NCBI RefSeq assembly: GCF_004762035.2
Contig: NZ_SIJK02000001.1
Span: 191,435-255,434 of the forward strand
Direction of reading: 5' to 3'
Length of the DNA stretch: 64,000 nt
Source of the DNA: Candidatus Chloroploca mongolica
GTDB taxonomy: Bacteria; Chloroflexota; Chloroflexia; Chloroflexales; Chloroflexaceae
Positions 25,914 to 39,435 of the stretch are shown in pieces; position 1 is the stretch's first letter; each line of letters begins with the position of its first letter. The notes below the pieces were generated by a model. It searched no databases and was not told where the DNA came from. It saw nothing but the letters and a program-made list of their open reading frames with translations. Made by a program: the position numbers and the translations under genes.

Positions 25914-27005
25914 TTATACTACATTCTCATCTTGCTCATCGAGCCGAATGCGTTCATTCGCTGTCTGGCTTGACTCGACATAACGACCAGGCATCATCAG
26001 GCTGGTCCAGCCCCCAGCGTCGCGCAGGGCAAAGGGGTCGCTCTTGCCACGAGCGGCGCGGGTTGCCCAGGTATGGCGCAAGTCGTGCGGCGCAAGCCCG
26101 GTGACGCCAATCCGTTCGCCGAGCAGCGCAACCCGGTCGCGGATGGCCCTGGTTGACATAAACCCCCAGAGTTCACCATTCTTACGTGAGCCGCGCAACA
26201 GCGGGCCGCTGGCGAGCGCATCATTCGCAAGGTAGGCCCGGGCTGCCGCGAGACTATCAGTTGGCAGGTGGTGCGTCTGGGTTGTATGCACCTTCTCACG
26301 GTAGAACGTCAGCGTGCCATCACGGAGATCGATGCTCGCAACGGTCAGCGCCGCGAGTTCGCCGACGCGCAGGCCAAGATCGAGCAGCAGACAGACGAGC
26401 AACGCATCGCGGCGGCCCTGGGGCGTATCAGGCTGCTCCTTCAAGGCCTGCACCTGGGGCGTCGTTAAGACGATCGCCTGGGCCTTCTTGCTCCCCACCC
26501 GAGTCGGCGTAGAAGTGCGTCGTCGCTGGGTGTCCATCGCCCGCGCCTGGCGACCACTATACCCGCGTACCGTCCGGATCAGCGCGAGCGCATCTGCGGT
26601 CAGCACCCCAGCTTCATAGGCGAGCAGACAATAGCGTCGCACGGTCGCCAGACGCACATTGATCGAGCCAATCGCATAGCCCTGCTGCAACTGCCACTGC
26701 ACAAACCCACTGACGAGGCCATGGGTCACATTCTCCCAGGCTTCAGGCTGGGTCGGCAAACGCGCCCCCAACGCCGCAGCCTCCGCCTCAGGGATCGCCT
26801 TGATCGACCCGAGGAAAAAAGCAAAGAGCGCCAGATCCGCCTCCTGGCGGCGCAGCGTATCATCATCAATGCGCCCACGGTACTCAGCGAACGTCGTCGC
26901 CAGCGCCGCAACATTCGCCGCCGCCGCGGCGCTCGGATCGATCCTTGGACGCAGCGTTCGCCCTGGTGGGGGCGGTGTTTCGTTTTCTTTACTTATGTCA
27001 ACCAT
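25914..27005 (-). CDS. Tyrosine recombinase (phage-integrase family)
   Basis: Site-specific recombinase of 363 aa. N-terminal SAM-like DNA-binding domain (about residues 35-150), then the catalytic domain with Arg213 (LGLRVGEL), Lys238 (REKVH), His307 and Arg310 (PHDLRHTW), Trp333 where many have His (GGWTS) and nucleophile Tyr342 (GRYVES). The set is complete, so it may be active. I prefer the ATG at 27005 over 27041, because 27041 falls in the spacer of the 14-7-14 inverted site at 27023-27057. It is a distinct protein from the broken integron-type integrase next door. Confidence 0.85.
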
Positions 27006-27022
27006 ATTTCGCGTTTTTTGAT

Positions 27023-27057
27023 ATAACTTCCGATTACCCATACTAATCGGAAGTTAT
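27023..27057. other. Lox-like recombinase core site: 14-bp inverted arms, 7-bp spacer
   Basis: Left arm ataacttccgatta (27023-27036), spacer cccatac (27037-27043), right arm an exact reverse complement (27044-27057). Size and geometry match a tyrosine-recombinase core site, and the outer ATAACTTC of each arm is the same as the outer eight bases of loxP. It ends 17 bases before the start of the recombinase gene. An operator for the same gene is the main alternative. Confidence 0.6.
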
Positions 27058-27094
27058 TGTAACCCAGGCGGCAAGCCCTGTCAACTGGCCGGTA

Positions 27095-27225
27095 GACGCA
27101 AAGACGCAAAGCTGTGTGGGGAGATGAAGCCAACCTTTGCGCCTTTGCGCCTTTGCGCCTTTGCGTCAAATCCTCAGCGAGCTGTGTGGGGAGATGAAGC
27201 CAACCTTTGCGCCTTTGCGTCAAAC
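27095..27225. repeat. GCGCAAAG repeat cluster inside the broken integrase
   Basis: A forward copy (27095-27111) and two reverse copies (about 27135-27170 and 27207-27225) of the CGCAAAG repeat. A block beginning gctgtgtggggagatgaag recurs 70 bases apart (27111 and 27181), so part of the element was tandemly duplicated. It interrupts the integron-integrase-like frame right after its N-terminal domain. Confidence 0.8.
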
Positions 27226-27604
27226 CCTCAACCGCAAGGTGCGTAAGGAAGGCGCTTACCTCAGACGCTCCCATCTCGCGGGGGTGGCACAACTGGTGAA
27301 AGCGGACGAAGCGACGCACCCAACCGACATAGGCCTCTTCGGTGCGGAGTGAATAGTGTTTCCGGCGGATCTCGCGCAGCGACGCGTCCGGATTGAACAG
27401 GTCAACAGCAGCGTCAAACGCGGTCGCATGTTCAAGGACGCCATCCGCCTCTGGCGTGGGGTCATTCGCGATCTGGTCATCGAAGTCGCCTGCGGCCTCC
27501 ACAATTTCCGGCTCCGCTTGTTTCCTTGGAAGCCACTCAGGTAAATCGGCATAATCTTTATTATCTAACCCTACTGGGACTTTGCAGCAGCCCTGGCCGC
27601 TCAT
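27225..27604 (-). pseudogene. Truncated integron-type integrase (IntI-like N-terminal domain)
   Basis: From ATG 27604, preceded by AAGGAGAGG, about 125 codons remain. After a 75-residue leader the frame reads [18 protein letters not shown], then [19 protein letters not shown]: the N-terminal DNA-binding domain of integron integrases. Homology stops there and the frame runs into a dispersed repeat encoding only LTQRRKG-type sequence. The whole catalytic domain (R..HxxR..Y) is missing. It points away from the rightward array of small genes, the classical intI/cassette arrangement. Confidence 0.8.
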
Positions 27605-27693
27605 CAACCTCTCCTTATCTTTGCAAGGCACGCGTGGTATACTAGTCATCAGGCAGGTTGTATCAGATGAGGTGACACGGAGAGGCATCCGGG
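27605..27693. promoter_or_regulatory. Spacer between intI remnant and first cassette gene, with putative promoter
   Basis: This 89-base gap is where attI and the cassette promoter would lie. An extended -10 (TGGTATACT, hexamer 27638-27643) points toward the BrnT-like gene; the -35 is poor. GGAGAGG at 27679-27685 is its ribosome site. I could not assign a convincing attI core. Confidence 0.4.
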
Positions 27694-27981
27694 ATGGAGA
27701 TTGCCGTTATCATCTGCCCAGCTCCAATCGAGGAAAAGCTCGCAACCAAGCACCACGTCACGGTGCGCGAAGCTCGACAAGTACTCCTCTCCGCACCACG
27801 CATACGGTTTGCTGAGACCGGGCACACGGCGGGTGAGGATGTCTATGTCGCATTTGGACAGACGTTCGGTGGACGCTATCTGAGCGTGTTCTTCGTCTAC
27901 AAACGTGACGCGGCGACGGCGATCATTATCAGTGCGCGCGCTATGAGTGAGAAGGAGCGACGGGCCTATGGACGCAAATAA
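27694..27981 (+). CDS. BrnT-like toxin family protein
   Basis: A 95-aa protein whose C-terminal half ([37 protein letters not shown]) matches the BrnT/COG2929 ribonuclease-toxin pattern, in which ISAR and ERR..Y are conserved. The N-terminus ([20 protein letters not shown]) resembles the usual WDxxKAxxNxxKHGVSFEEA helix. Good ribosome site 8 bases upstream. The antitoxin-like gene overlaps its end by 14 bases. First gene after the intI remnant. Confidence 0.7.
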
Positions 27982-28228
27982 GGGCAGTTCCATTTCGCAC
28001 GCGACCACGCTCGAAGCCATGGGAGCCTTCTGGGATACCCACGACTTCACGGACTATGATACGGATACGCCGGATGTCCCGTGTAGCATTGCGCGGGCTG
28101 TGCCGCTTGAAGCCGAGCTATGGGCAGCGCTCGAGCGGCAAGCACAGGTGCGCGGCGTGAGCCTGGAAACGCTCGTCAACTTATGGCTGCAACAAAAGCT
28201 GAGCGAAGAAGCGCGACCGGCGGCCTAA
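27968..28228 (+). CDS. BrnA/CopG-like antitoxin
   Basis: An 86-aa protein. FWDTHDFTDYDTDTPDV is followed by a ribbon-helix-helix-like segment (RAVPLEAELWAALERQA, RGVSLETLVNLWLQQKL), the layout of CopG/BrnA-type antitoxins paired with BrnT or small RNases. It begins at ATG 27968 inside the toxin's last codons, so translation is coupled. It probably binds the toxin and represses the pair's promoter. Confidence 0.75.
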   Translation: MDANKGSSISHATTLEAMGAFWDTHDFTDYDTDTPDVPCSIARAVPLEAELWAALERQAQVRGVSLETLVNLWLQQKLSEEARPAA

Positions 28229-28501
28229 TGGTGAGGCGACCACGAGAGCGACGTGGTTGCCACGGTCATAGACCACGTGCGCTGCTTCAGTGCATAACAC
28301 CGGGCCAGGGCAGCATCTTCCGGCAAGCATCCACCACAAACGTTGCCGTTCGTTCCCCCGCACCACCTGGAACGAAACGATCAGGAGATGCGTTGAAGCA
28401 TCAGCATGCATCCTCCCCAGCCATCAGCGATGTCTTCCCCTTCATCGCTTTTCGATGCGATAAAGCCTGCTTATTGCGTGCTAAAGCCATCCGCTCATAC
28501 T
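28229..28501. other. Non-coding cassette tail
   Basis: About 270 bases between the antitoxin stop and the first attC-like site. No reading frame here resembles a known protein and no strong hairpin stands out. Long non-coding tails before attC are common in integron cassettes. Confidence 0.4.
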
Positions 28502-28635
28502 GCCCAACCCGCGCGTGCAGGCGACGCCGCTGGCACGACCCGCACGTTGGGCGCGATCTTGAACGTTCGACGCTGACAACAGGCGTATCGATCTATCGAA
28601 CCTGCCAGCGGCGCGCCTGAAGCGCAGCGTTGGGC
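28502..28635 (+). other. attC-like recombination site 1
   Basis: Left end GCCCAAC (28502-28508, fits RYYYAAC) and right end GTTGGGC (28629-28635, fits GTTRRRY) pair perfectly. Inside them, 28519-28535 pairs with 28603-28618 through CAGGCG and CGCCGCTGGCA, with one unpaired A at 28524. The result is an attC-type fold: outer simple site, unpaired central spacer, inner stem and an extrahelical base. The 134-base length is within the known attC range. Confidence 0.75.
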
Positions 28636-28707
28636 GGCTCTACCAACTCCTCTGTTTGATAGTACAATATCCTACGTGAGGCATACGCTACCGACGGGAG
28701 TATCATC

Positions 28708-28920
28708 ATGACGTTTACCATTGAGACGGAACAAGAAACTGACAGCCGCTGGATTGCCGAGATCATGGAACTGGCCGGGGTACTCGCCTATGGTACAACC
28801 CGCGACGAAGCACTTGCCCGCGCAAAGGCACTGGCCCTACGCGTGATTGCGGAACGACTGGAGCATGGTGAAGAACCCTCTGCGCTCACGACGATTGCAT
28901 TTGAGGCAACGCTCGTATGA
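28708..28920 (+). CDS. HicB-like antitoxin
   Basis: A 70-aa protein matching short HicB-type antitoxins: FTIETEQETDSRWIAEI, then GVLAYGTTRDEALARAKALALRVIAERLEHGE. These fold as a degraded RNase H and neutralise HicA. A HicA-like start overlaps its stop by four bases (ATGA). Coupled order HicB-HicA. Confidence 0.78.
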   Translation: MTFTIETEQETDSRWIAEIMELAGVLAYGTTRDEALARAKALALRVIAERLEHGEEPSALTTIAFEATLV

Positions 28921-29210
28921 GTTCGTGGTCAGCAACCAAAGCACGCCGCGTTCTCGCGGCGCTTCTTCGGATCGGGTGGCACATCAAACGAACCTCTGGC
29001 TCTCATCGAACCATGGTGAGACCCAATTATTTTATGGGGCGCTTCCCACCCATCGAGTTGTCCAGCGCAATACGTTCACTATCGATGATCTGTTCCAGCA
29101 GTTGCAGCCACGGTTGCATGACAATGTGCCTGCTGAAAACCGTCCCATTGGGGAGCCTTACGGCATGGCGACTATCGAATTCAGTGACGGCAACGAACAC
29201 GATCATCTGA
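28917..29210 (+). pseudogene. HicA-like toxin with corrupted C-terminus
   Basis: Begins as HicA should (SSWSATKARRVLAALLRIGW, then SGSHRTM with the catalytic His of the dsRBD-like fold). After about residue 40 the sequence stops resembling HicA and becomes Ser/Cys-rich. Another frame (about 29000-29452, including MATIEFSDGNEHDHL from 29165) looks more protein-like but is unrecognised. I read this as a HicA truncated by fusion to foreign DNA, so the pair is probably toxin-dead. Confidence 0.55.
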
Positions 29211-29340
29211 TTTACGATGAGACATTCGCTGTAGAACTCTTCCAGGTCGCATGCGCAAACCTCATGGAGGATGAGGAGTTTGGCGCAGAAATTGTCACCG
29301 CTGAGTGTGCCAGGCTTGGAGGCACGCCACCCGAAAAGCT

Positions 29341-29484
29341 GGAGGGATTACGCTGGGGTTACGCTTACGCCATGTCGACGTCCTCACCGCGTATGAAGAC
29401 CACGCCCACGATATTGCTGATAGCGATCTCCTCGACCGGGCAACGGCATTAGGCCGAGTCCCCTTTCCCCAAGATGATGATCTG
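29341..29484 (+). pseudogene. Fragment of a DUF5615 (PIN-like) toxin
   Basis: This frame reads GGITLGLRLRHVDVLTAYED, then DLLDRATALGRVPFPQDDDL, the middle of DUF5615/Mut7-C-type PIN-like proteins, including the acidic DDDL site. Both ends are missing: no start upstream in frame and no C-terminal part. It is a relic of another toxin-antitoxin cassette. Confidence 0.6.
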
Positions 29485-29756
29485 CGCACTGCGCTGCGTC
29501 CGAAGCCTTCTTCATTGATAACATACCTCGCAATGCCGCAGCGGTGCAGCAACGTGGGATGCGGGGATGTGCCCGTATCCGTGCAGGACGCTCCGTCGCA
29601 CCACATATCGCCACACGTCACGAAGTCGAGCCCGTTCTCACCGCAGTGTGATCGATATCGTTCGCACGGAGTAGCACCATATACATCGGGAGCGTTGGAC
29701 GTGCCAGTGCTGCTTTTCCTGCCATCATCATAAGAGCTCCATCAACGATAACCCCT

Positions 29757-29842
29757 TGCCCCAAACCAAGCCGTGCAGCCTGACGCCCCTAGCGCGGCTC
29801 TACACTTGCGGATATGCCAGCGGCGCATCTGACGCTTTGGGC
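29757..29842 (+). other. attC-like site 2 (degenerate)
   Basis: CCCAAA near 29760-29765 can pair with TTTGGG at 29836-29841 (from CTTTGGGC). Inside, TGCCAGCGGCGCATCTGACGC repeats the right half of site 1 and the left side carries a weaker match around CAGCCTGACGCCCC. The G of GTTGGGC has become T, so activity is doubtful. Confidence 0.5.
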
Positions 29843-29902
29843 AATTTTCCGCACTGGAATGCGCTATAATCCTTTTGCTTTCGTGCCGACCCTCGCCTCG
29901 CT

Positions 29903-29945
29903 CTACCGAAACTGCCAGCGACGCGCCTGACGCTCACCGTTGGGC
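29903..29945 (+). other. Orphan right half of an attC-like site
   Basis: CTGCCAGCGACGCGCCTGACG followed by GTTGGGC (29939-29945) is nearly the right half of site 1, in the same orientation. No matching left half is found between 29843 and 29902, so the cassette before it appears to have lost its 5' part. Confidence 0.5.
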
Positions 29946-30102
29946 CGCCTCAATTTTAGCCGCCACACGTTGAAGGCTGCTCAGGCGAGCGCCCGTTGTG
30001 CGAGGTCGAACACGTGCCGTGATCATCAGCCGTTGGGAGTGTCGAGCGGAAGAACCGGCATCGAGAACGCTCCTACCGAGGACACGTTGCGTTTGGCATC
30101 CC

Positions 30103-30132
30103 TTGCCGCACGCCTCTCTTTCATGGTATGAT
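30103..30132 (+). promoter_or_regulatory. Putative promoter of the first Uma2 gene
   Basis: TTGCCG (30103-30108), 18-base spacer, TATGAT (30127-30132), 45 bases before the Uma2 start. A cassette-borne promoter would let this gene be expressed without an integron promoter. Confidence 0.5.
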
Positions 30133-30176
30133 ATGAAGCAGCAGAACGTGCGTTTTACCTCGATATGGAGGCGTCT

Positions 30177-30779
30177 ATGACCGCACAACCAAAGCATTAT
30201 GTCACAAGCGATGAGTATTTAGCATTCGAGCGCACGAACGACGAAAAACATGAGTACCTCGCAGGGATGATCTATGCGATGTCTGGTGCAAGTGCGCGCC
30301 ACAACCGTATTGCGGGGAGTACCTATGCAACACTGTATGCGCAACTACGCCAGCGTCAATGCACGGTATATCCAAGTGATATGCGGGTAAAAGTCATTCA
30401 GACCGGGCTCTATACGTACCCCGATATTACTATTGTTTGCGGTAACGAACAGTTTGAAGACAAGAAAGAAGACACCCTCCTTAATCCGACCGTTATTATC
30501 GAAGTATTGTCGCCATCAACAGAGAAATATGATCGCGGAAAGAAATTTCAGCATTACCGTGCAATTCTTTCACTGCGTGAGTATATCTTAATCGCACAGG
30601 AAACCTATCACATTGAGCGATTTGTACGGCAAAGTGACAATACATGGGTCTTATCAGAGGCAACCAACCGAGAAGACACTATTGAGGTTACTACTGTTCA
30701 GTGTGTCCTCCATCTTGAAGAGGTCTATGAGAAGGTAACATTTTCATCAACCGAAGAAGAGCAAGGCGAAACAGCGTAA
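30177..30779 (+). CDS. Uma2-family PD-(D/E)XK endonuclease-like protein
   Basis: A 200-aa DUF820/Uma2 protein. Pattern: YLAFERTNDEKHEY (first conserved Glu), SDMRVKV, YPDITIVCG (catalytic Asp), NPTVIIEVLSPSTEKYD (Glu) and GKKFQHYR. The family folds like restriction nucleases and is abundant in Chloroflexota and cyanobacteria; the biological role is unsettled. Start 30177 has GGAGG six bases upstream. The left arm of attC-like site 3 overlaps its last codons. Its first 25 bases of coding sequence recur at 33610. Confidence 0.85.
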   Translation: MTAQPKHYVTSDEYLAFERTNDEKHEYLAGMIYAMSGASARHNRIAGSTYATLYAQLRQRQCTVYPSDMRVKVIQTGLYTYPDITIVCGNEQFEDKKEDTLLNPTVIIEVLSPSTEKYDRGKKFQHYRAILSLREYILIAQETYHIERFVRQSDNTWVLSEATNREDTIEVTTVQCVLHLEEVYEKVTFSSTEEEQGETA

Positions 30780-30895
30780 GGCGGACGCCGCTGGCGCGGC
30801 CCGTGAGTTGGTGCGTTTTTCATGCGCGTGACGTGCTAACGTGCGGTGCCATCTAGCGAACCCACCAGCGGTGCCGCTGAAGCCCGGCGTTCGGC
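30765..30895 (+). other. attC-like site 3
   Basis: Left GGCGAAAC (30765-30772) faces GTTCGGC (30889-30895), an imperfect simple site. Inside, GGCGGACGCCGCTGG pairs with CCAGCGGTGCCGCT, with small bulges. Layout and orientation agree with site 1 and it directly follows the Uma2 gene, as expected for a cassette. The core differs from GTTRRRY at one base. Confidence 0.55.
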
Positions 30896-30926
30896 GCACT
30901 GCCAGTCTGCAATCGAGAAAGGTCAT

Positions 30927-31436
30927 ATGGAAATCGAGCACTTTGTCCAGCAGATGCTCGCCAATGCTGAGCGGATTCGCTCTCTCGTGCAAGTTGTCCC
31001 CAGCAGCCAAGCACGTTGGAAGCCAGATGAGGCGTCCTGGTCAATTCTGGAGGTGGTCGGTCATCTCTACGATGAGGAGCGCTTGGATTTCCGCGTTCGA
31101 TTGGACTTCACCCTTCATCGCCCCGGTGAGCCTTGGCCGGCGATCAATCCCCAGGGCTGGGTGCAAGAGCATCACTACAACGAGGGAGATCTTCAGGAGT
31201 CACTCGGCGGCTTTCTCGCAACGCGGGAGGATTCGGTGCGATGGCTGAGAGGGTTGTCATCCCCGAATTGGACAGCAGTGTATGAAGCGCCGTTTGGGCA
31301 GATCAGGGCAGGCGATCTATTGGCTGCTTGGGTGGCACACGATCTGCTTCACATGCGGCAGTTGGTGGAACTGCATTGGGGCTACCTGGTGGGGGGAGTG
31401 AAGCCCTACCAGGTGCAATATGCGGGAGAGTGGTAG
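30927..31436 (+). CDS. DinB-family four-helix-bundle protein
   Basis: A 169-aa protein with the DinB/YfiT pattern: an N-terminal helix, WSILEVVGHLYDEE (first metal His), and HDLLHMRQL near the C-terminus (two more His), the usual three-histidine metal site. Members include thiol S-transferases and many of unknown role. ATG 30927 has GAGAAAGG upstream. It is the next cassette after Uma2. Confidence 0.83.
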   Translation: MEIEHFVQQMLANAERIRSLVQVVPSSQARWKPDEASWSILEVVGHLYDEERLDFRVRLDFTLHRPGEPWPAINPQGWVQEHHYNEGDLQESLGGFLATREDSVRWLRGLSSPNWTAVYEAPFGQIRAGDLLAAWVAHDLLHMRQLVELHWGYLVGGVKPYQVQYAGEW

Positions 31437-31521
31437 GAGGCCAGGGATAGGGCGCTTATACTTCCTATGCCTTCCCATGCGCTCCTATGCGCCGCTTATG
31501 TTTCCTAGACGCGAGGTTCCC

Positions 31522-31689
31522 ATGGATTATGCAATAGCACGCGATGAGGCAATGGCGCAACTCGCCCGCAGCAAGCGACGGGCGTACCTGGCGCTGCTGG
31601 TGGGCAGCGTGCTGGTGCTCATCCGCGCTGTACGACGGCAAGAACGGCGGGCGCGACCAGGTGGTGCTGGCCGTCGTACAGCTGCGTGA
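31522..31689 (+). CDS. Possible small membrane peptide
   Basis: 55 codons: a charged N-terminus (MDYAIARDEAMAQLARSKRR), one hydrophobic helix (AYLALLVGSVLVLIRAV) and a very Arg-rich tail. No ribosome site is obvious. The tail coincides with a 12-bp inverted repeat (31628-31639 and 31670-31681) that may instead be a terminator or attC arm. Weakly supported. Confidence 0.3.
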   Translation: MDYAIARDEAMAQLARSKRRAYLALLVGSVLVLIRAVRRQERRARPGGAGRRTAA

Positions 31690-31725
31690 CGTGATGGTGT
31701 GAGCACGCGGGTGCGCTTCCAACGG

Positions 31726-31758
31726 CTGCCAGCGGCGCAGGTGAAGGAAGCGTTGGGG
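31726..31758 (+). other. Right half of a fourth attC-like site
   Basis: CTGCCAGCGGCGCAGGTGAAGG leading to GTTGGGG (31752-31758) matches the right halves of the other sites, with the last core base altered. A partner left half is uncertain; GAACGGCGGGCGCGACCAGG near 31641 is a candidate. DNA from here to 31970 encodes no complete gene, though one frame ends in LEDMLRRVVREELRK, perhaps the tail of a lost antitoxin. Confidence 0.4.
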
Positions 31759-31970
31759 CGGCTAAAGCAGCGTCATTCTACTTCCATTGGTGGGGATGGT
31801 ACAATAGGGCCAGTGCTCTGCGCGCGTACATCAATCAGCACTCCCTTGAAGATATGCTGCGACGGGTCGTGCGTGAGGAACTCCGCAAGAGCGCGTAAGC
31901 GCACGTCCAATTTGGCGGAGCAAACCCAGAATGGGTTGAATAAATAGTAGATAGACAGAAGAGGACAAGC

Positions 31971-32534
31971 ATGTCAGTCTACATACCAGCGATGCTCACT
32001 GAAGGGGAATATTTGGCCTTTGAGCGCATAAGCGAGCAAAAGCATGAATATTATGATGGGATCATCGTTGCCCAGGCGGGCGGAAGCGCCGCACATAATC
32101 GGATCACGATGAATGCCTTGAATAGCCTCTATAATCAGTTGATTAATCGCCCCTGCACGGTCTATTCGAGTGACATGCGGGTGAAAGTTCCACGCAAAAA
32201 TAGCTATGTGTATCCGGATGGCGTCGTCGTGTGTGGCGAAGAACGCTACGACGATACTGGAGATACGACCCTCTTAAACCCGATCGTCATCATTGAAGTG
32301 CTGTCACCCTCAACCGAACGCCACGATCGAGGGAAGAAATTTGAGTGGTATCGGACAATCGAGAGCTTAGAAGAGTACGTATTGATTGCCCAAGAAACGC
32401 AACGCATTGATCATTTCCGGCGGCAGTCAACCAGTTTATGGACGTTTACCTCGATAGGTGCGGAAGAAGCACAGCTCTATCTCGCCTCAATCGATTGCAC
32501 TTTGATCCTCAATGCCATCTACCACAATATATAA
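31971..32534 (+). CDS. Uma2-family PD-(D/E)XK endonuclease-like protein, second copy
   Basis: 187 aa, clearly paralogous to the gene at 30177: LAFERISEQKHEYYDG, SDMRVKV, YPDGVVVCGEE, NPIVIIEVLSPSTERHD and GKKFEWYR. The nuclease-fold Asp and Glu are kept. GAAGAGGA lies just before the ATG. Codons differ widely from the first copy, so this is an old duplication or separate capture, not a recent copy. Confidence 0.85.
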   Translation: MSVYIPAMLTEGEYLAFERISEQKHEYYDGIIVAQAGGSAAHNRITMNALNSLYNQLINRPCTVYSSDMRVKVPRKNSYVYPDGVVVCGEERYDDTGDTTLLNPIVIIEVLSPSTERHDRGKKFEWYRTIESLEEYVLIAQETQRIDHFRRQSTSLWTFTSIGAEEAQLYLASIDCTLILNAIYHNI

Positions 32535-33008
32535 GTTCTGAAACTGAATAGCAGCGGCGCGTACCAGTGGCACACCTTCTACCAACAGCGGCGCACCCGG
32601 GCGAATCACCTCCGATCATCTGCGATCCTGGCATCGAAGCGAGGCACCCGCAAGGGGTGCCCCTACAGGGCCGGGGGCCGGGCCCGGTGTACGGGCACCC
32701 CTGGCGGGTGCCCTGGCGGGTGCCCTGGCGGGTGCCCTGGCGGGTGCCCTGGCGGGTGTACGGGCGGGTGTACGGGCGGGTGCCCTGGCGGGTGTACGGG
32801 CGGGTGCCCTGGCGGGGTGCATACACGGAAGATGCCATCGCCCTGAGAGAGCCTCGGCTCAGTCTTGACAATGAACTGTCTTGATGTGTACTCTTTGTAT
32901 ATACGCTAAGGCATGTTTCAGAATTGAGTATGCTTGCTTGACCGTAGCGCATTCATTTCTGGAAAACCATCAGTCGGCTGAGCCTGGAAGCCGACTGAAG
33001 GAGGAGCA
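32535..33008. repeat. Gene-free stretch with a 10-unit 12-bp minisatellite
   Basis: 32701-32820 is exactly ten 12-base units, variants of ctggcgggtgcc and cgggcgggtgta. Just before it lies a ggcacccgcaaggggtgcc hairpin (about 32643-32661). At 32969-32995 a 9-bp hairpin (cagtcggct/agccgactg) precedes mazE. Open frames across the array encode only repeated RVPW/RVYG or PART-type peptides and are not credible genes. Confidence 0.8.
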
Positions 33009-33251
33009 ATGCAAAGTAAAGTTCAAAAATGGGGTAACAGTCTCGCGCTCCGGATCCCCAAGTCGTTTGCCGCAGAAATCGGTCTTTCCGATGGCACCCC
33101 CGTTGAGCTTACGCTTGTTGAAGGGAAACTCGTTATTGCACCGCTCCCTGTCCCAAGCTACTCCTTGGAAGCTTTGCTTGCTGGGATTACGCCGGCCAAC
33201 CTTCACGGAGAACTGGACACGGGAGCGCCTCAGGGTACTGAGGTGTGGTGA
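33009..33251 (+). CDS. mazE: MazE/AbrB-type antitoxin
   Basis: An 80-aa protein with the swapped-hairpin AbrB/MazE N-terminus (VQKWGNSLALRIPKSFAAEIGL, then GTPVELTLVEGKLVI), and a C-terminal tail likely to wrap the toxin. Preceded by AAGGAGGAGCA and a short hairpin that may serve autoregulation. Its TGA overlaps the toxin's ATG (TGATG). Confidence 0.88.
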   Translation: MQSKVQKWGNSLALRIPKSFAAEIGLSDGTPVELTLVEGKLVIAPLPVPSYSLEALLAGITPANLHGELDTGAPQGTEVW

Positions 33252-33595
33252 TGACGTATATTCCATCACGAGGTGACATTGTCTGGCTCACCTTCAATCC
33301 TCAAGCAGGCTCGGAACAAGCAGTTCGCCGGCCAGCAATTGTACTCTCACCGTCCACATACAACGGGAAAGTTGGACTTGCCATTTTCTGTCCCATTACG
33401 AATCAAGTCAAGGGATATCCGTTCGAAGTAGCCTTGCCAAAGGAACTTCCAGTTACCGGTATCGTACTATCGGATCAAGTCAAGAGCTTGGACTGGAGAA
33501 GCCGAAATGCGCAATTCGCGGGTCAAGTGCCGACAGAGGTCCTCAACGAGGTGCTGCAAAAAGTGTCAGCGCTTCTTTTCCTACCATCATCATAA
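33251..33595 (+). CDS. mazF: MazF/PemK-family endoribonuclease toxin
   Basis: A 114-aa protein: RGDIVWLTFNPQAGSEQAVRRPAIVLSP, then CPITNQVKGYPFEV and VLSDQVKSLDW, the full MazF pattern with the catalytic Arg in the first loop and Thr in CPIT. It cleaves single-stranded RNA at short sites when free of MazE. Translation is coupled to mazE through the TGATG overlap. Confidence 0.9.
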   Translation: MTYIPSRGDIVWLTFNPQAGSEQAVRRPAIVLSPSTYNGKVGLAIFCPITNQVKGYPFEVALPKELPVTGIVLSDQVKSLDWRSRNAQFAGQVPTEVLNEVLQKVSALLFLPSS

Positions 33596-33609
33596 GAACC
33601 TCATCAGTT

Positions 33610-33888
33610 CAACCAAAGCATTATGTCACAAGCGCTCTTCGGAAGCTTGTTGAGGAAGCGCGGCATGTGAACAGTAACCGGGATAAGGTTCGGCGTTCGC
33701 AAGAGATCGCTTACAAATTCATGTCCGCTATGGCGGGTGACTTGCCAGGGTTTGAGGAGGCGACCAGGGCGTTGTTCGCAGGAGACCATGAACAGTTTCA
33801 TAGCCTCATTTCTTCATGGCCTGTCGATGTCCGGGATTATGTCCGAAAGCTTTCAGCATCTGCTTTCCAACGTGAACATGCCACCTAA
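33610..33888 (+). pseudogene. Chimeric fragment: Uma2 5' end joined to a DUF2239 C-terminus
   Basis: 33610-33634 is identical to 25 bases of the Uma2 gene at 30186-30210 (QPKHYVTS in the same frame). It continues in frame into LRKLVEEARHVN, then YKFMSAMAGDLPGFEEATRALFAGD and WPVDVRDYVRKL, the C-terminal part of DUF2239 proteins. No start precedes the Uma2 part; a GTG at 33667 would give only 73 residues. I read it as a recombination scar. Confidence 0.65.
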
Positions 33889-34050
33889 ATCTGCGTCATC
33901 TGCGGATGATCAGGAGGACTTTGCATCAGCCTTGCACGATCATGGATCGATCGGGTGTCCTCGAAGGCTCGTGTGCTATACTATGCATGAACTGAGTAGT
34001 GTCAGCTCAAGCGATACGAAGTGCCATCCGGCATAGAGATAGCCATCATC

Positions 34051-39380: not shown

Positions 39381-39435
39381 CAGGGCTACGCTGAAAATGG
39401 GGGAACTTGGTTCCCCCATTTTCAGCGTAGCCCTG
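39381..39435. repeat. 26-bp perfect hairpin in a divergent intergenic region
   Basis: Arms 39381-39406 and 39410-39435 match exactly around a TTG loop. It lies between the divergent starts of the PucC-type gene and thyX, so it is not a terminator of either. A second copy, inverted and with a compensatory base-pair change, is at 53211-53263. Confidence 0.85.

Follow-up and report, generated by a model that had tools for sequence, protein, structure and literature searches.

Some recombinases act on a palindrome next to their own gene. Is this the case for a tyrosine recombinase of Candidatus Chloroploca mongolica, or does the palindrome before its gene merely control expression, or does it belong to the machinery that moves the neighboring island of variable genes? 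We address these questions for a stretch of 64,000 nucleotides from contig NZ_SIJK02000001.1 (the window). A preliminary description of this DNA had proposed a self-contained module of recombinase and core site, which might move or resolve the island, or might be autoregulatory.

The recombinase and the palindrome

The recombinase gene is on the minus strand (25914..27005) and encodes 363 amino acids from its ATG, with a Phage_integrase domain, the catalytic set of residues, and a predicted Cre-like fold. The predicted 35-bp site (27023..27057, no strand assigned) ends 17 bases before the start codon at 27005. It reads ATAACTTCCGATTA-CCCATAC-TAATCGGAAGTTAT, which is two perfect 14-bp arms (27023-27036 and 27044-27057) around a 7-bp spacer (27037-27043). 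Another in-frame ATG at 27041 lies within the spacer, but 27005 is the better start because the orthologue in G030 has in-frame stops between the site and the gene. So, the 14-7-14 inverted site before a recombinase with a complete R-K-H-R-W-Y set, as originally described, is confirmed.

Perfect inverted repeats of at least 14 bp with short loops are common in this window: there are several others, versus 1 in 200 simulated windows. The significance of the site therefore rests on its conservation and not on the palindrome itself. (Two of the window's perfect short-loop inverted repeats, at 39390 and 53219, are nearly identical, GCTGAAAATGrGGG..., and are perhaps a repeated terminator or a REP-like element.)

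The catalytic residues are R213, K238, H307, R310, W333, and Y342. Across 39 homologues, R213, R310, W333, and Y342 are invariant, and K238 and H307 are at least 90% conserved. The protein belongs to the tyrosine recombinase superfamily (72.6 bits for PF00589, Phage_integrase, versus a cut-off of 27.1). The matching NCBIfam models were Xer-type, integron/archaeal XerA-type, or invertase, each far below its cut-off; for the equivalog models, the scores were 51.7 of 335 bits for XerC, 41.3 of 330 for XerD, and 38.1 of 267 for XerS. The integron-integrase model in NCBIfam (TIGR02249) did not match. In a profile search, XerC, XerA, and XerD were the best hits, with Cre behind them (E = 2.5e-11). 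Cre was reached by profile only, so the sequence does not indicate close kinship to Cre.

The predicted structure gives a different ranking. For the AlphaFold2 model (mean pLDDT 88.5, pTM 0.65), the closest full-length matches are Cre-lox complexes (Foldseek E = 1.9e-9; Z of about 20 with an rmsd of about 4 Å). XerA had an equal Z but an rmsd of 16 Å, and XerH had a Z of 17. Cre, too, has tryptophan at the sixth catalytic position, and W333 is invariant. With a full-length Cre fold (as predicted) and tryptophan as the sixth catalytic residue, the protein is of the Cre/lox type in these two respects.

Inheritance of the site with the recombinase

We scanned all 41 genomes of the family with a relaxed site pattern and used the reversed pattern as a control. 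The site was found in 13 genomes, which are exactly the genomes with a close orthologue of the recombinase (about 70-96% identity), and in 0 of the other 28 (5.7e-11, Fisher test). The reversed pattern was not found. (The 13 include G012, which has a fragment of the gene at a contig edge and the site on another contig.) The orthologues form a clade with support of 100/99, and 10 of the 13 genomes have a single copy of the site. This distribution indicates that the site's co-occurrence with the recombinase is not due to chance.

For the orthologues in G001 and G002 (93-95% identity), all 35 bp of the site are identical. G013, G014, G023, G024, G030, and G031 are more distant (about 70-76% identity) and have a diverged 14-7-14 site in the same place. 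Among the 24 arms from 12 genomes, 9 of the 14 positions are fixed (T2, A3, T6, C8, G10, A11, T12, T13, and A14). The arm consensus is ATAA[C/G]T[T/A]CCGATTA, and the inner part (CCGATTA) is nearly invariant. The spacers in these 12 genomes are all 7 bp long, and they vary at every position.

The outer eight bases of each arm equal those of loxP, which the preliminary description had highlighted. That match is present, but arm positions 4, 5, and 7, which lie within the shared eight bases, differ between orthologues. We rejected the match as evidence of kinship, and the site's resemblance to lox, as judged from these arms, is incidental.

Homologues with 40-52% identity are found in other families of Chloroflexota, in a metagenome-assembled genome labelled Synergistaceae, on plasmid AP024711, and on several contigs from IMG/VR. 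These distant homologues have palindromes of the form YGATT-N9-AATCR at or just before the gene, some of them degenerate. The complete 212-kb Leptolinea plasmid AP024711 has one gene and one site. The Herpetosiphon-like homologues (f3) and those from the genus g75 lack a recognizable site of this type. In the viral contigs, the stricter 35-bp consensus had no exact match, and in a phage collection, no protein matched the recombinase.

We made several other observations about this family. In G000 (L004, contig C69), the start of a truncated paralogue is preceded by a 14-7-14 palindrome of another sequence, ATAGACTCGCATAA-N7-TTATACGAGTCTAT, at about 1200-1234. In two different lineages, a sigma-70-family gene lies directly downstream of the recombinase (L092:1672-2226 and L205:7369-7920). 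And the Ktedonobacterales-like genomes G366 and G085 have extra solitary sites (L281, L282, L284, L285, and L286 for G366; L287 and L288 for G085), which have the same type of palindrome and different spacers. Several of these are near the ends of genes, and there was no strong match to the recombinase family within roughly 6-8 kb of flanking sequence.

These comparisons indicate that the recombinase and the site are inherited together across the family and, in a looser form, across the phylum. The palindrome's conservation upstream of orthologous recombinases was a check that the preliminary description had called for, and its outcome did not refute the module. Given the 13/13 versus 0/28 co-occurrence, the constant 7-bp spacer, and the related site across the phylum, its suggestion of a self-contained module is well supported as a prediction, and the 35-bp palindrome is very probably the cognate site of the recombinase.

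The neighboring island

Does the module move the island beside it, as had been suggested? To the right of the site, the region is a decayed integron (27224-34000 of the window). By sequence match, a remnant of the N-terminal part of an integron integrase lies at about 27224-27376 on the minus strand, and attC-like repeats lie near 28502-28635, 29814-29948, 30784-30898, and 31726-31752. The first of these has a strong single-strand hairpin fold (z = -4.7). The genes between the repeats are BrnT/CopG-antitoxin-like, HicA-like, and Uma2. (A 12-bp G-rich unit, GGCGGGTGCCCT, is repeated in tandem at 32679-32828 of the window.) The integrase remnant adjoins the module in G001 too and, weakly, in G002.

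Within its own 6.3-Mb assembly, the 35-mer is single-copy, even with up to 3 mismatches allowed, and the half arm (13 bases) has no further exact copy, so there is no second site that might bound the island. Also, the homology between G000 and G002 extends 32 bp beyond the site, to just past the -35 box, so there is no island boundary at the site itself. With no second copy, unbroken homology at the site, and an island that is a decayed integron and contains a remnant of its own integrase, the idea that the module moves or resolves the island is not supported.

More broadly, the recombinase might have served an integrative element or a former phage-plasmid as its integrase, with the site as an attachment core that was left behind in the chromosome. 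This would fit with the homologues that are encoded by a plasmid and by virus-like contigs whose other genes include those for DNA methyltransferases, a helicase, or an HNH endonuclease. It would also fit with the gene neighborhoods of the recombinase, which differ between genera, and with the spacer tttatac, which the homologues from two families of Chloroflexota have in common. But there is no pair of attL and attR sites: in C. mongolica's genome and in 10 of the 13 family genomes, no second copy with the same spacer bounds an element, and the extra sites differ in their spacers. Furthermore, the arms are symmetric rather than hybrid, and free drift of the spacer would hardly be tolerable for an integrase that needs a matching target. 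We consider this explanation unlikely.

The site as a probable operator

The site overlaps a predicted promoter on the minus strand. The -35 box (TTGACA, 27079..27084) is 17 bp from the -10 box (TACAAT, 27056..27061), which shares its last two bases with the start of the site's arm. All 9 of the gene-linked sites, each from a different genome, have this geometry: TTGAC[A/G] precedes the site by 27 bases and is followed, after 17 bp, by a -10-like box whose end coincides with the arm's first two bases. Given the geometry of sigma-70 promoters, transcription would start within the arm, which is the classical position for a repressor. This conserved register suggests that the recombinase probably represses its own promoter.

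Another conserved motif, TTGACATAA, lies inside the start of the gene (26993..27001, minus strand). Of the 9 genomes with gene-linked sites, 8 have this motif, at a distance of 8-21 bp past the site, and it contains the rare codon ATA. In G014, the motif is upstream of the ATG and out of the reading frame, so it is apparently conserved as DNA and looks like a DNA signal. We considered if it could be a second promoter and rejected this, as the compared sequences have no -10 box in register.

Could the palindrome be an operator only, with the recombinase (or some other factor) repressing there and with no recombination at the site? Tyrosine-recombinase folds also act as phage regulators, and YopR, MrpR, and SroF, which are regulators with this fold, are among the structural matches of our model. 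An operator would also account for the fixed register of the site over the -10 box and the predicted start. However, all of the catalytic residues are retained, and the 7-bp spacing, within the 6-8 bp of Cre/lox-type sites, is that of a strand-exchange core. Also, in three genomes the site is away from the recombinase's promoter: it is about 430 bp from the gene in G020, about 265 bp away in G027, and on another contig in G005. None of these detached sites has a TTGAC[A/G]-17-(-10) promoter, yet they are still palindromic: the arms are perfect in G005 and G020, and in G027, 10 of the 14 positions match. Since the palindrome persists away from the promoter, the site's function probably goes beyond repression; we view a role as an operator alone as unlikely. 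The autoregulatory operator that had been suggested thus stands as one of two roles, and it does not suffice alone.

One of the detached sites is near a rearrangement. Relative to G027, the site and the neighboring WD40 gene are inverted in G005. The break is resolved to about 130 bp and there is no second site at the other end, so we do not claim that a natural rearrangement occurred exactly at the site.

A proposed role in resolving multimers

We favor, by a little, the view that this is a Cre/Xer-type module of a single recombinase and a single site, which would repress itself and would most likely resolve multimers of its replicon. Most likely, a dimer of the recombinase occupies the two 14-bp arms. 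A pair of such sites would then synapse, and strands would be exchanged across the 7-bp spacer at putative cleavage positions. A replicon usually carries one copy of the site, and the spacer is free to vary; the expected partner is therefore the identical copy carried by a multimer or a sister of that replicon. Recombination between identical copies would convert multimers to monomers. Since the site covers the edge of the -10 box and the predicted start of transcription, the bound recombinase would also repress its own promoter.

Cre/lox resolves multimers for phage P1, and Xer/dif does so for chromosomes. We see about an even chance that multimer resolution is the main role here. The plasmid, with one gene and one site, fits best. 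Among the genomes we examined, none showed a product of recombination or a second, identical copy of the site. On chromosomes, the module may be retained, redundant, or a relict; a role in resolution there would be redundant because the same genome also encodes a canonical Xer-type recombinase elsewhere. The solitary sites with different spacers in G366 and G085 are not explained by simple resolution.

A more elaborate possibility is that this is a phylum-wide family of recombinases whose site doubles as the operator, which would couple expression to synapsis and sense the copy number or multimer state of its replicon, and that some lineages have reused the site for another job on the chromosome. 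(These would be the lineages where the site is detached from the gene or where there are several solitary sites with different spacers.) We consider this quite unlikely.

The position of the module on the chromosome also bears on its role. It lies 127 kb from dnaA in G000 (contig C72:89561) and 12 kb from dnaA in G002 (contig C92:80455). (Around dnaA and the module, these two genomes are rearranged relative to each other.) The GC skew of these two Chloroploca contigs is weak and noisy, and no terminus could be recognized at the site. In sampled skew, the site in G361 is near a negative-to-positive (origin-like) switch, and the site in G387 is at neither switch. As far as such weak skew allows, placement of the site at the terminus, like dif, is not supported. 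A chromosome-dimer resolution system proper, which would stand in for Xer and act together with FtsK at the terminus as XerS/difSL or XerL might, would account for the pairing of one recombinase with one site, known from XerS/difSL, XerH/difH, and the plasmid-borne XerL (PMC5357621, PMC9765430), but it is very unlikely given that just 13 of the 41 family genomes have the module, that a canonical Xer is also present, that the module is near dnaA in two Chloroploca species, and that the sites in G361 and G387 are near an origin-like switch and at neither switch.

Comparison with known systems

In a limited search of the open-access literature, we found no such system described in Chloroflexota beyond predictions of dif for Dehalococcoides. 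The module is thus a testable pair of recombinase and site from a phylum for which that search turned up no description.

Like an integron integrase and its attI, the module pairs a tyrosine recombinase with a site beside it, and a variable region is next to them. In contrast, the intI of the integron here is a separate, decayed gene, and the module's site lies apart from the attC cassettes.

In XerS/difSL, XerH/difH, and XerL/dif, as here, the recombinase gene adjoins its single site. Gene and site are kept together in XerS/difSL and XerH/difH (PMC5357621), and Coxiella XerL is plasmid-borne with its site adjacent (PMC9765430). However, those systems have 10-11-bp arms around a 6-11-bp center (instead of 14-7-14) and act on chromosome dimers, whereas our module is not at an identified terminus and its genome has a canonical Xer besides.

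The closest parallels are Cre/loxP, Dre/rox, Vika/vox, Nigri/nox, and Panto/pox, each with one recombinase and a perfect or near-perfect palindrome of similar length near the gene. Nigri/nox and Panto/pox were each predicted from a recombinase and a palindrome close to it, and both then proved to be active (PMC4957104). As with the relatives of Cre/loxP, some members of our family are in a plasmid or phage setting, and the predicted fold matches over its full length. Compared to Cre/lox, the recombinase is just 14-18% identical (by structural alignment), the spacer is 7 bp instead of 8 bp, and the 14-bp arms have a CCGATTA core. Also, this site is embedded in the recombinase's own promoter, and most members are on chromosomal-looking contigs of Chloroflexales. 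The promoter-embedded architecture would make regulation and recombination compete. The natural variants (the sites of 12 genomes, with differing arms and spacers) give a direct readout of arm specificity, and new Cre-type pairs that do not cross-react would also be useful as laboratory tools.
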